From positions 240,689-304,688 of the forward strand of contig MPMG01000002.1 in assembly GCA_002238485.1 (NCBI GenBank): 64,000 bases of DNA. Direction: 5' to 3'. The first letter of the stretch is position 1. Each line of letters begins with the position of its first letter. The stretch is from Chloroflexi bacterium bin20. Its GTDB lineage: Bacteria; Chloroflexota; Anaerolineae; Aggregatilineales; Phototrophicaceae. The notes under the pieces are model-generated. The model made no database searches and had not been told where the DNA came from. It saw only the letters and a program-made list of their open reading frames with translations. Positions 38,166 to 45,816 of this stretch are shown one piece after another. A program made the translations under genes and the position numbers.

Positions 38166-38726
38166 CTACTCGATATTCGCATGACGCGCATTCATGTCGC
38201 GTTCATCCACGCCCAGCGCTTCTTTCAGCCGTATCACCAGCAGATCGCAGGTCAAGCCCAGGCAGTGCTCAAAGAGCGCGCCCATCACCAAGACAGACTC
38301 GTCGCCGCTGCCACCGTTGGCTTTGAAATTGGTGGCGGGGATGTACACCAGGCTATCCACCGCGTGCGCAATGGGCGAATCCAGATTGCCGCAAATCGCC
38401 GCCAGACTCAGGCCTGTGCCCGCCAGCGATTCGACTGCGCCGACGAGACTGCGCGTGCGTCCCGATGAAGAGCCGACCAACAGCAAATCTCCCCTGCCGA
38501 TGGCTGGCGCGGTGACATCATCGACCACATGCACAGCCAGCCCCAGGTGCATCAGCCGCATGGCAAAGGCGCGCATCTGCAGACCAGTGCGTCCCTTGCC
38601 CGCGATGAACACCCGCCGCGCCGACAAAATCGCTCGCTGCAGCGCATCAATCTGCGCCGGATCGACTCGCTTCAATGCCCCGCCGATATCCGCGAGGATG
38701 GCGTCAATCAACTCGGCTGTGCTCAT
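38166..38726 (-). CDS. 6-phospho-3-hexuloisomerase, SIS domain
   Basis: RVFIAGKGRTGLQMRAFAMRLMHLGLAVHVVDDVTAPAIGRGDLLLVGSSSGRT. Confidence 0.88.
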   Translation of the reverse strand: MSTAELIDAILADIGGALKRVDPAQIDALQRAILSARRVFIAGKGRTGLQMRAFAMRLMHLGLAVHVVDDVTAPAIGRGDLLLVGSSSGRTRSLVGAVESLAGTGLSLAAICGNLDSPIAHAVDSLVYIPATNFKANGGSGDESVLVMGALFEHCLGLTCDLLVIRLKEALGVDERDMNARHANIE

Positions 38727-39354
38727 GGTTGCGAATCCTCTCGGCGAATCGTCTGGCCATTGTCGCTGGATCGCTGGTCCTGGTGATGGCGCCACCGACG
38801 ATGATGATCTGCGGCAGACAGGGCAAGATCTGCGGAAGCGCGTCCAGTGTAAGGCCGCCGGCGATAGCCAGCTGCGCCTCGGGCAGTTGCCTGTGCAGCT
38901 CTGCCAACAGGGCATACGGAGCGGCTTGTGATGCTTGCAGGTCTTGCGCGCGGTGCAGGCAGAGCGCATCGCAGCCCAAGGCCAGCAGCCGCCGTCCGCG
39001 CATGAGCGGATCCGCCACTTGCATCATGTCCGCCATCACGCGTTTGCCATGTGTCCGTGCAGCCTGCGCGGCGCCGGCAATGGTGGCATCGTTCGCCAGC
39101 CCCAGCACTGTGACGAAATCGGCGCCAGCAGCGAAGGCGATATCCGCTTCCAGGTCGCCGGCGTCCATGATTTTCAGGTCGGCGAGCAGGGTCAGCGCCG
39201 GATACAAAGCGCGGATTTTCCGCACAGCGCGCATGCCTTCGCGGTAGATCAGCGGCGTGCCCACCTCGGCGATATCAATATGCGGACGCGTCTCTGCCAG
39301 AATATCCAGCGCTGCGGAGAGTTCACCATCCAGCGCAAGCTGCAGTTTGAGCAT
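38704..39354 (-). CDS. 3-hexulose-6-phosphate synthase (OMPDC family)
   Basis: LKLQLALDG...DIAEVGTPLIYREGMRAVRKIR...LLADLKIMDAGDLEADIAFAAGADFVTVLG. Confidence 0.88.
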   Translation of the reverse strand: MLKLQLALDGELSAALDILAETRPHIDIAEVGTPLIYREGMRAVRKIRALYPALTLLADLKIMDAGDLEADIAFAAGADFVTVLGLANDATIAGAAQAARTHGKRVMADMMQVADPLMRGRRLLALGCDALCLHRAQDLQASQAAPYALLAELHRQLPEAQLAIAGGLTLDALPQILPCLPQIIIVGGAITRTSDPATMARRFAERIRNHEHSRVD

Positions 39355-39651
39355 GGTCGAGATTCCTGTTTCTTGCAACGCTAGTGTATCGGCAGTTTGT
39401 GCGGGCTGCTGCTGTGGCGCAGAGCAATCGGGCGCGCCAAATTCTGGGCATATGAGATCCAAGCCCCATCCCCGACAAGCAGTGTTTACGCTGTACGCCA
39501 CTTCCTGTGTCTACAGGAAGAAAGCCCCGCCCTCATTTTGGGGGAGAGGTTTGGCTGGGGGCAGCGGGCGACCCATCGGCTCGCTCCAACTTCGCAAGCT
39601 GTCCGCTCTGTGGTTACAATACGCACCCAGACTCGAATCAGGGAGGCGCGC

Positions 39652-42566: not shown

Positions 42567-42614
42567 GGATGGGTAGGGAAAGTAATCAAAGTCAGCTGGC
42601 AACAGAAACGGCCT

Positions 42615-43226
42615 CTAGGTGTTATACCTGCGCACAAGTCCCGGTTCGCTGTGATAGTCTTCTGGTAGCGCCACGCGACTTAGATAGAATGCGAAACGGC
42701 TACTGAGATGCTCGAGGTAAGGGCTACGCAGTCGGCAGCGTCTGTGCGTCTCGCCGAGTTCAATCCGTTTGTAGAGTTCGCCAGTTGGCACAGAAAAGTA
42801 TCGTTTGAAGTCGATGACAAGTTCATCGATTCCCTGTTCTTGCAGGTCGAGACTACTCTCCACTTTGGAAAAGAATTGATAGCGTTCATCTTTGTTTTGC
42901 TTGACTCTGCGCCAGATTCTAGATTTGTCGGTGTTTTTGGAACCGTCGACAGCGATGATTTGCCTTGCTGCGGAGATGGCAGGCATCGCTTCGCACAAGA
43001 GAATGCTGGGTATCGTTCTGTCACGCGCATCGGGCTTCGTTCTCGAATTGAAGTCCCAGTCGAGGTCGCAATCTTGCGAAAGAACATAGGCAAAAGCGTG
43101 ATTGCGCCGTATGGCACGGGGCGATTCTTGAGCGATGGTGTGCAATTCTACGAACAACTGTACAACATTGGACAGCAATTCACCTTGCCGCAAAGCCGAC
43201 TCGGGCACGGATTTGGCGTAGATCAT
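42615..43226 (-). CDS. Uncharacterised protein with AYVLSQDCDLDWDF motif
   Basis: 203 aa; stop/start overlap with the upstream ORF in the same cassette. Confidence 0.7.
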   Translation of the reverse strand: MIYAKSVPESALRQGELLSNVVQLFVELHTIAQESPRAIRRNHAFAYVLSQDCDLDWDFNSRTKPDARDRTIPSILLCEAMPAISAARQIIAVDGSKNTDKSRIWRRVKQNKDERYQFFSKVESSLDLQEQGIDELVIDFKRYFSVPTGELYKRIELGETHRRCRLRSPYLEHLSSRFAFYLSRVALPEDYHSEPGLVRRYNT

Positions 43227-43777
43227 ACGCGCTCAGCGGTTTCCTCATATTCGTCCCAGTCGATTTGCCACGCCGGAGCAGGTTCGTTGCCGGTAACTGT
43301 CACGGAAACTGGAGTCAGCTTTACACCGCTGTCAGCGCCTTTGCCTCGGGTGGCATAGGCCTGCAAGTTGCGAATGTCATTGCAAGTCCCAAGCAAATCG
43401 CCAAACCCCCACTTGGGCAGCGTAGGCAGTTCCATGCCCAGTTCAAATGCGCCGTCCAACCTGTCTCGGTCTATGAATCGCATAGCGATCAAAGCCAGCG
43501 CCGCGCGTTTCGTTATGTCTTCCAATTCGCGATTCAAGCCGAGCAATTGCGAGCGATGACCCAAGATGATCAGATAACGAAATAGCAGGCTTTCCAGCGA
43601 ATCCGCTATGTCAATAATTTGCCGATCCGCCTCTGTCGTCATCAAGTCGGCGCTGGTGGCAATCGTTTGATCATGTGGCTGGCTCTGGACCCATGGCCGT
43701 GTGTAAGGGATCAAGGATGCACCAGCGGAAGAAGTTTCTGTTGAGTATGTTGAATTCACTTGCGCGGCTAATGACAT
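43223..43777 (-). CDS. Uncharacterised protein (start uncertain: 43777 or 43642)
   Basis: Alpha-helical 140-184 aa protein between the TIGR04255-like gene and the 203-aa gene. Confidence 0.6.
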   Translation of the reverse strand: MSLAAQVNSTYSTETSSAGASLIPYTRPWVQSQPHDQTIATSADLMTTEADRQIIDIADSLESLLFRYLIILGHRSQLLGLNRELEDITKRAALALIAMRFIDRDRLDGAFELGMELPTLPKWGFGDLLGTCNDIRNLQAYATRGKGADSGVKLTPVSVTVTGNEPAPAWQIDWDEYEETAERV

Positions 43778-44492
43778 TGTTGACCTCCGCAGGAACTTCG
43801 TCGCTTGTAAACAAGTCATTATCTAGCAAAAACACCAAGTCGCTGTCTTGCGATTCGCTGGCGTGGGCTAGCCCATGACTAACGCGGATAAAGTCGCCGG
43901 CCGCGTTCATGCTTAGGGAAAATACGCCATTCTGCTCCACGATCTCAGGCTCGTAGTCAGGAAGTCCCAGTGGTCCCAGTACCTGCGGCGCAATCAAGTC
44001 CCGCCAAGGCACATTCGCAAGCTCCATTGCATTTCGGTCTATAGCATTCTGATACCGCAAACCCAGCCTGCTGATAGAGTCGGGCGCATAAACCGAAATG
44101 AGCGCATGAACCATTTTTTCCAAATGCTCACGAAAGTCTTCCCACCGTCGGTATGTCCGCGTCTGTAGAGCCACAAAATCTCGCGCTAAAGTGATAGTCC
44201 AGTTCTTGTCTTTGCTCAAGAATTGATATCTTCGTCTATCTGAAGCAATCAGCACTTGTCTCAGATCTTGTGGGATCAACTCCGCTATAGCAGGAGGCAA
44301 TGGAATATCATCGCTTTCCGCTGCCGCTTGAAACAGCGGAAAGTCACTGCGTATTTTATCCTGAAAGGCGGCGGGCAGAGCCGATTCTATCGACAGTATC
44401 GGCGGAAACATGAGTTGGCAGATAACCGACTGCAAGGGATTATTGCGATAGATCACCCGCTCGACGTCAGAAAACAAGTTCTGGAAGTGCAA
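43671..44492 (-). CDS. TIGR04255 family-like protein
   Basis: NNPLQSVICQLMFPPILSIESALPAAFQDKIRSDFPLF ... FFRWCILDPLHTAMGPEP resemble the N- and C-terminal signatures of the family as recalled. Confidence 0.75.
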   Translation of the reverse strand: MHFQNLFSDVERVIYRNNPLQSVICQLMFPPILSIESALPAAFQDKIRSDFPLFQAAAESDDIPLPPAIAELIPQDLRQVLIASDRRRYQFLSKDKNWTITLARDFVALQTRTYRRWEDFREHLEKMVHALISVYAPDSISRLGLRYQNAIDRNAMELANVPWRDLIAPQVLGPLGLPDYEPEIVEQNGVFSLSMNAAGDFIRVSHGLAHASESQDSDLVFLLDNDLFTSDEVPAEVNNVISRASEFNILNRNFFRWCILDPLHTAMGPEPAT

Positions 44493-44574
44493 TGATTTGC
44501 CTCACTATGGCGATTGATACGAGTATACACACGCTATGTAATTTGCGCATTAGAGATTTTAAGTTAGTCAAAAC

Positions 44575-45816
44575 TCACCGTCTCCGCATGATATCCTCAG
44601 CCAGGGTCAGCAGTTCGTCGCGGCGGCTCGCATCCACATCACGGCTTTCGAAGTAGCGCGCGAGCAACTGCAGCGGACTGAGTTCTTCTGCGCTTTTGCC
44701 CAGCCGGGCGCGCGTGCTCCGCTCTATATCTTTGCGCAAGCCCGCCATGTGAAAAAGGCCCGACCGTCGCAGCGCCCGATGAATCTGCCCTTCGTTCAGC
44801 AGCGTCTCGCTTTCGGGAGTCAGCGCAATGTGCAGCCGCAGCACAGCATCGCGCAACTCTTGCGCTTCCAGCGCTGCCAGCACAGACTGGGTCGGGTCGA
44901 GGCTATCGCGGCAATCGACCTCGATAGTCAGCAGCTTGCGCGCATTCAGTTGCACGAATTGCCAGTCGGCCCGCCCGCGCCGCAGCTCTACCCAGCAGAA
45001 GCCCTTGGCCGCGCCTTCTTCGCCAAAGTCGATGCGCTCGATGCTGCCGCTATAGACCACTGGCGGCCAGTCGGCCTGCCCATGAGTCAGATTCTGGTGC
45101 TGATGGATATGCCCCAGCGCGACATAATCCCAGCCCGCATCGGCAATGCAGTCCAGCCCCACCGCCACATCGCGCCCCAGCATGACGCCGCGTTCGCTGC
45201 CCCACATTGCGCCTTCCAGCGAAAAATGCCCAGCCAGGAGCTTTGGCGCATCGTCATTTGCCAAAGTCTGTGCTTGCTGCGCCAGCGCTGTCAATTGCTC
45301 GATCAGCGCCAGCTTCAGGGCTTCGTCCTGTTCGGCAATAGTCAGACCGCGCATGTCCTCATGTGCCAGCAGCCGCGCGCGCATGGGATAAGGCGCTGCG
45401 CCCAGCACGATATCGCCGCGCCGGGTGCCGATGCGCCGCGTCTCATAATCCTGCGCCACCCAGATGCCAGCCAGCGCCAGTGTGTCAAATATCTCGATGC
45501 TGGAGGCTTTGGCGGCATTCAAGGGCAGGTCGTGATTGCCCGCCAGCAGCAGAGTCGGCGCAAGCTGCGATAGCCGCAAGACTCGCTCGGCGAATTCGCG
45601 CTGGATGGTCGGGTTGGGGCTGCGCGTGCGGAAGGCATCGCCAGCAAAAACAACCAGATCCACCTCGCGGGCTTCGGCAAAGTCGATCATGTCGTCCAGC
45701 CGCGCCAGAAAGTCGACGATGCGGCTGCTGATGCCATGCTGGGGGTCGGTCTTGCCGAAGTTGGCCATGCCGACATGCACATCGGCGAAATGCAAAACGC
45801 GAATAGGCGGCTTCAT
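44575..45816 (-). CDS. SbcD/Mre11-like metallophosphoesterase (DNA repair exonuclease)
   Basis: VLHFADVHVG, VVFAGDAF, LLAGNHDLP, LAGHFSLEG, YVALGHIHQHQ, YSGSIERIDFGEE. Confidence 0.9.
   Translation of the reverse strand: MKPPIRVLHFADVHVGMANFGKTDPQHGISSRIVDFLARLDDMIDFAEAREVDLVVFAGDAFRTRSPNPTIQREFAERVLRLSQLAPTLLLAGNHDLPLNAAKASSIEIFDTLALAGIWVAQDYETRRIGTRRGDIVLGAAPYPMRARLLAHEDMRGLTIAEQDEALKLALIEQLTALAQQAQTLANDDAPKLLAGHFSLEGAMWGSERGVMLGRDVAVGLDCIADAGWDYVALGHIHQHQNLTHGQADWPPVVYSGSIERIDFGEEGAAKGFCWVELRRGRADWQFVQLNARKLLTIEVDCRDSLDPTQSVLAALEAQELRDAVLRLHIALTPESETLLNEGQIHRALRRSGLFHMAGLRKDIERSTRARLGKSAEELSPLQLLARYFESRDVDASRRDELLTLAEDIMRRR

Follow-up and report, generated by a model that had tools for sequence, protein, structure and literature searches.

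Organization of the cassette

The window, i.e., the whole stretch of 64,000 nucleotides from Chloroflexi bacterium bin20 that was analysed, harbours three tightly packed minus-strand genes next to an sbcD-like gene, all of which lie where the original prediction had placed them. The three genes, termed T, Mid and S, form a compact low-GC operon on the minus strand (window positions 42615-44492), which together with its borders comprises the following features:

45816..44575, minus strand: sbcD-like housekeeping nuclease gene (TIGR00619, E=5e-34)
44493..44574, minus strand: spacer of 82 nt between sbcD and T, carrying the T Shine-Dalgarno sequence GTGAGG
44492..43671, minus strand: T, TIGR04255 protein of 273 aa with a TTG start (NCBIfam, 9.3e-44)
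43223..43777, minus strand: Mid, the middle gene, 184 aa from ATG 43777, putative antitoxin/adapter with an acidic C-terminus
43226..42615, minus strand: S, the SQDCDL protein, 203 aa, putative RNase toxin/effector as judged from a structural model
42567..42614, no strand: downstream junction, from the S stop codon to the 3' end of the convergent NamZ gene

Mid and S are linked by a 4-nt ATGA overlap. The GC content of the cassette amounts to 51.5% versus 60.0% for the whole window, in agreement with the lower-GC stretch noticed originally, and a value as low as this is reached by just 0.3% of the window stretches of the same size. Neither S nor Mid finds a match in Pfam, NCBIfam, PADLOC or PHROGs, and the window Mid contains no domain recognisable in family searches. 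Taken together, the data summarized below suggest that T, Mid and S, in this order, constitute a tripartite toxin-antitoxin-like module. The trio recurs in several phyla and thus is more than a chance arrangement. Elsewhere in the window (38166-39501), two overlapping minus-strand genes look, by eye and from their translation only, like a hexulose-phosphate synthase and an isomerase; the pair sits within a sugar/NamZ/xylulokinase region.

T is a member of the TIGR04255 family

T matches the TIGR04255 model with E=9.3e-44 and a score of 150.1 bits against a curated cut-off of 30, and the alignment spans model positions 2-252 of 252. No function is assigned to the family in NCBIfam, and its name was not found in the literature searched. 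The family is widespread: members occur in 39 of the 399 Chloroflexota genomes sampled and also on plasmids of several phyla. An AlphaFold2 model of T, built from an alignment of 28 sequences (A1; shallow for folding), consists of two alpha/beta repeats and reaches a pLDDT of 89.9. Fold searches with this model yielded no convincing match; TBP-like entries recur weakly, and a two-repeat, TBP-like topology is only a hint from the model. Kinship of T with McsB/guanidino-kinases or TBP was dismissed at TM-scores of ~0.3 and rmsd values >9 A, and a match to the Sp100 bromodomain (E 2e-4), being local, of partial length and without fold support, was put down to chance.

S adopts a predicted MazF-like fold

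The AlphaFold2 model of S, which likewise derives from a shallow alignment (31 sequences), has a pLDDT of 91.4 and is MazF-like by predicted fold. The top 50 PDB matches listed are MazF toxins throughout (50/50), with E values from 1e-3 to 7e-2 and probabilities of 0.87-1.00 among these listed matches. The corresponding TM-scores are moderate, ranging from 0.52 to 0.67 when normalised by MazF length and not exceeding 0.40 when normalised by the query. At the sequence level, profile similarity between S and the MazF proteins of relatives was not detected (hhalign E 0.87), S and its homologues do not match PemK/MazF in Pfam or NCBIfam, and the PDB holds no sequence match worth the name. It is therefore the predicted fold that connects S with MazF, and given the missing profile similarity S is not placed in PF02452.

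Within the S alignment (A2), the motifs RQxE, QDCDLDWD and DFK as well as R62, C78 and R162 are invariant; the invariant polar residues are Q51, D52, C53, D54, D56, D58, D139, K141 and R162. Judging from the model, S most likely represents a MazF-fold effector with endoribonuclease activity.

Recurrence of the trio and mobile carriers

A scan of 85,462 species genomes retrieved 31 S loci. T is located immediately upstream of S in 28 of them, which belong to Chloroflexota, Cyanobacteria, Acidobacteriota and Planctomycetota; the partners hence recur beside TIGR04255 genes, the neighbourhood that the original prediction had proposed to check. Among the remaining three loci, one (L081) is truncated where its contig stops, and two (L079 and L082) comprise Mid and S without T. 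In the genus of the window, separate genome-wide searches for T and for S return the identical 12 of 34 genomes. A complete T-Mid-S trio adjoining an AbiJ-type gene is found on a Methylocystis plasmid, and T operons are present on conjugative plasmids and on phage/viral contigs. S was not found in viral contigs, and no E. coli relatives of a cassette on a Klebsiella plasmid were found. The survey of the distribution is weighted to Chloroflexota and Cyanobacteria. The joint occurrence in the genus, the spread of the trio across phyla and the mobile T operons provide good support for the initial notion of a mobile accessory module with co-inherited partners.

Mid starts inside T

The best start codon of Mid, ATG 43777, follows a GGAGG Shine-Dalgarno sequence and is internal to T. 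The resulting protein of 184 aa supersedes the sizes of 140 or 198 aa considered earlier, and the overlap with T extends over 107 nt in the +1 frame. After deduplication, 40 of the 45 loci have Mid in the +1 frame of T. In 37 loci, no stop codon interrupts the overlap frame over 36 codons or more, compared with 9 loci expected upon synonymous shuffling of T codons; the loci are related, and hence no formal probability is attached to this comparison. Across phyla, almost all loci of the window type place the Mid ATG 103-124 nt before the T stop codon. This conserved internal ATG is usually preceded by a Shine-Dalgarno sequence and often is the only good start available. In the distant cassettes L023, L024 and L025, Mid begins at an ATGA overlap instead.

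The two T-less Mid-S pairs (L079:5656-6582 and L082:5615-6579) stem from two Calothrix-like cyanobacteria, and in both the Mid N-terminus has been lost. As far as can be read from these sequences, the pairs suggest that Mid-S is the minimal unit. The absence of the Mid N-terminus where T is missing fits an N-terminus tied to T, and suggests that the T-overlapping part of Mid may depend on T.

The sbcD site and allele swapping

A close homologue of sbcD is present in 61 of 61 relatives, including cassette-free congeners, and in nearly all congeners it is found behind the same small gene. The cassettes of the genus are always located downstream of sbcD in the same orientation, and the remaining neighbourhood varies; the linkage is contained in a single contig in 11 genomes and was inferred from contig ends in 1. 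Outside the genus, the flanks of the cassette loci (1.5-6 kb) do not contain sbcD. Since sbcD is universal in the relatives and lacking from these flanks, SbcD is not a component of the cassette, a role that is also ruled out by the phylogenetic incongruence described below. The original prediction had left the membership of SbcD unclear: its housekeeping nature is upheld, and its participation in the cassette is not. In this genus, sbcD is the genomic anchor of the cassette.

Where SbcD identity to the window is highest (84-90%), the relatives have sbcD adjacent to NamZ at a distance of 13-28 nt, for instance 24 nt, which corresponds to a clean empty site. Mapped on the SbcD tree, the presence of the cassette requires 10 changes, a result no better than that of random labels. 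The T proteins at the sbcD site of the genus form one clade (100/99), and their identity correlates with that of S (r 0.75) and hardly with that of SbcD (r 0.08). Accordingly, the genomes G415 and G420 share 91% identity in SbcD but only 42% in T, and G404 and G416 share 62% in SbcD, 75% in T and 87% in S. In AU tests, neither T (p 8e-48) nor S (p 1e-4) is compatible with the SbcD tree, and T is likewise incompatible with the S tree (p 1e-6). The conflict of the T and S histories with that of SbcD indicates that cassettes have been exchanged as alleles at a fixed site. Convincing cassette remnants are absent after sbcD in cassette-free congeners, and therefore, there is no sign of decaying copies; a lone Mid-like match in one congener (G411) covers 40 residues with 27% identity (E 0.004) and lies on the opposite strand.

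Upstream of T, several congeners show a TATAAT-type promoter-like box and a GCGAC..GTCGC palindrome, features which are less clear in the window. The box, in several cases combined with the GCGAC-N-GTCGC palindrome and followed by TTACGTA, is seen in L107, L115, L116, L119, L121, L122 and others. From its sequence, the palindrome region might possibly serve as an operator or a 5' hairpin. A second promoter type upstream of T accompanies G403, G407 and G425. Furthermore, a gene for a ~459-aa ADP-ribosylglycohydrolase-like protein lies between sbcD and T in three congeners (L119, L120 and L121), and in the cassette-free close relatives G406 and G419 this gene also seems to start behind sbcD. The genome G415 contains a second, distant T (L098, contig C11) away from sbcD and with another partner set.

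Different third genes follow T

The third genes were surveyed at 42 T loci away from the sbcD site, taken from Chloroflexota genomes, plasmids and a phage record. In these loci, T precedes a middle gene and then a third gene, for which there are a few kinds. A short S takes the third position in 5/42 loci. In 15 of the 42, the third protein is a longer homologue of S (hhalign 95.8%, E 3e-9) encoded behind an HTH-bearing Mid, and the one Mid of this class that was tested matches HTH_3 and an Xre-like antitoxin HTH.

HEPN proteins are the third product at nine of the 42 loci, PF05168 being matched by 5 of the 7 tested (best 4e-6). These operons (L006, L008, L014, L018, L019, L022, L026, L030 and L034) encode third proteins with RAYYAAF and RNxADY motifs, unnamed in NCBIfam and often found behind a conserved middle protein of ~170-200 aa. 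Another 5/42 loci (L011, L017, L020, L021 and L033) end in an “ILYRRI” family, the members of which comprise 116-152 aa, feature the pattern ILYRRI...ISSxAF...SVDR and lack a convincing Pfam or NCBIfam match; a “WDxYGA” middle protein precedes three of these five. A further type of 218-231 aa with a GMGLTCAT motif occurs on a Rhizobium plasmid and an integrase-linked viral contig (L003:5503-6159 and L177:2542-3237). A PIN domain considered for L035 was discarded, as the match is too weak.

Given the variation of the third genes behind T, TIGR04255 appears to be the constant element of a tripartite, modular system of toxin-antitoxin-like type, in which the third gene is swapped. MazF-fold and HEPN proteins are typical RNase toxins, and this is the main ground for reading the operons as toxin-antitoxin modules.

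Proposed mechanism and alternative explanations

We consider it probable that S is a growth-arresting, RNase-like effector, Mid an antitoxin or adapter and T a sensor or chaperone that controls the release of S. According to this model, S would stop growth once released, as its predicted fold suggests, and Mid, translated from within and just past T, would keep S inactive through its C-terminal tail. The assignment of Mid as antitoxin/adapter draws on the gene order, on the variability of Mid and on the Xre-like HTH in the Mids of another cassette class. T would stabilise the Mid-S complex, either as a sensor or as a chaperone, and it would let the complex set S free once triggered, for example by an infecting phage or when the operon is lost.

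The main rival, which overlaps with the toxin-antitoxin reading and which we deem rather unlikely by comparison, is a dedicated anti-phage (abortive-infection) system devoid of addiction, where T senses a phage product, Mid couples and S acts as the effector. The patchy presence and the allele swapping of the cassette fit an arms race, T operons travel on phage/viral contigs and conjugative plasmids, one cassette adjoins the AbiJ-type abortive-infection gene, and a few lie beside type I R-M, DarT or ThiF/multiubiquitin genes. However, T, Mid and S have no match in PADLOC-DB 2.0.0, and the neighbours of S loci are mostly ordinary: AbiJ, type I R-M, DarT and PIN genes are scattered among 120 proteins scanned, and type I specificity genes account for 3/120, figures that stand without a control set. 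This evidence for a location in defence islands is weak, and as far as the sequences tell, a role of the cassette in phage defence is a plausible one.

Still less probable is a non-toxic regulatory or RNA/DNA-binding module, in which S would place an SH3-like barrel on nucleic acid, T would bind a small molecule or nucleic acid, and the operon would regulate the host. S lacks sequence similarity to MazF, many SH3-like barrels are non-nucleases, and HTH-containing Mids do occur in another cassette class, all of which would agree with such a module. Yet, the 50 listed fold matches of S are exclusively MazF proteins and not a mix of barrels, the HEPN third genes contribute a second fold typical of RNase toxins, the invariant polar residues of S look as if they formed an active site, and the cassette can be dispensed with and is swapped.

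That the three genes modify the function of SbcD within a repair operon is highly improbable and already largely refuted by the phylogenetic incongruence. In favour of it, the cassettes of the genus keep a constant, co-oriented position downstream of sbcD in otherwise variable surroundings. Against it stand the presence of sbcD in all relatives with or without a cassette, its absence from the flanks of non-genus cassettes, the rejection of the SbcD tree by the T and S histories and the promoter-like region that T possesses on its own in relatives.

Returning to the preferred toxin-antitoxin reading, the finding that TIGR04255 comes first in operons whose last gene encodes a predicted MazF-fold or a HEPN protein suggests a testable role for the family as sensor, chaperone or antitoxin, which would concern modular toxin-antitoxin or abortive-infection systems. 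Two items are newly named, the SQxCD proteins as a superfamily of predicted MazF-like effectors and the conserved overlap of genes that are out of phase, and the allele swapping after sbcD offers a natural experiment on module exchange. More tentatively, TIGR04255 might mark a large and so far undescribed group of tripartite toxin-antitoxin systems with an immune role. In such systems, a constant T would control effectors that are unrelated and exchangeable (MazF-fold, HEPN and others) and that each come with a specific middle gene; the adapter would start in an alternative frame inside T, and alleles would be swapped at a fixed chromosomal site, in this genus after sbcD.

Comparison with known systems

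Tripartite toxin-antitoxin systems (TAC) and constant antitoxin domains paired with many toxins (Panacea) are already known. The databases and literature searched yielded no case in which a constant, separately encoded TIGR04255 protein is combined with exchangeable middle and effector genes. T is a clear, full-length member of TIGR04255 (sporadTIGR04255), a family that appears here as the constant part of three-gene modules.

The cassette has the layout of type II toxin-antitoxin systems, i.e., a small overlapping operon with a putative antitoxin gene before the toxin gene. It is reminiscent of MazEF/PemIK/Kis-Kid in the predicted MazF-like fold of S and in the small, linked upstream gene that overlaps S in the manner of an antitoxin. 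In contrast to these systems, S shows no profile similarity, is longer and carries other invariant motifs (RQxE, QDCDLDWD), and the cassette has T as an extra gene and a Mid in which no antitoxin domain is recognised. MNT-HEPN systems resemble the class of T operons that ends in a HEPN protein, but an MNT nucleotidyltransferase is not seen in these operons, and T plus a class-specific middle gene take its place.

TAC systems consist of three genes, coding for a HigB toxin, an antitoxin and a SecB-like extra protein (PMC9098466). The cassette shares with them the number of genes and an additional protein by which the antitoxin could be controlled, yet T is the first gene and yields no SecB match in family searches or among the listed fold matches, and S is predicted to be MazF-like, whereas the TAC toxin is HigB. 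Finally, the Panacea-domain antitoxins form a hyperpromiscuous network of two-gene systems, in which the domain resides inside the antitoxin (PMC10440598). The likeness lies in one constant family that is paired with many unrelated toxins; in the cassettes, however, the constant protein has a first gene of its own, and the middle and third genes vary in concert.
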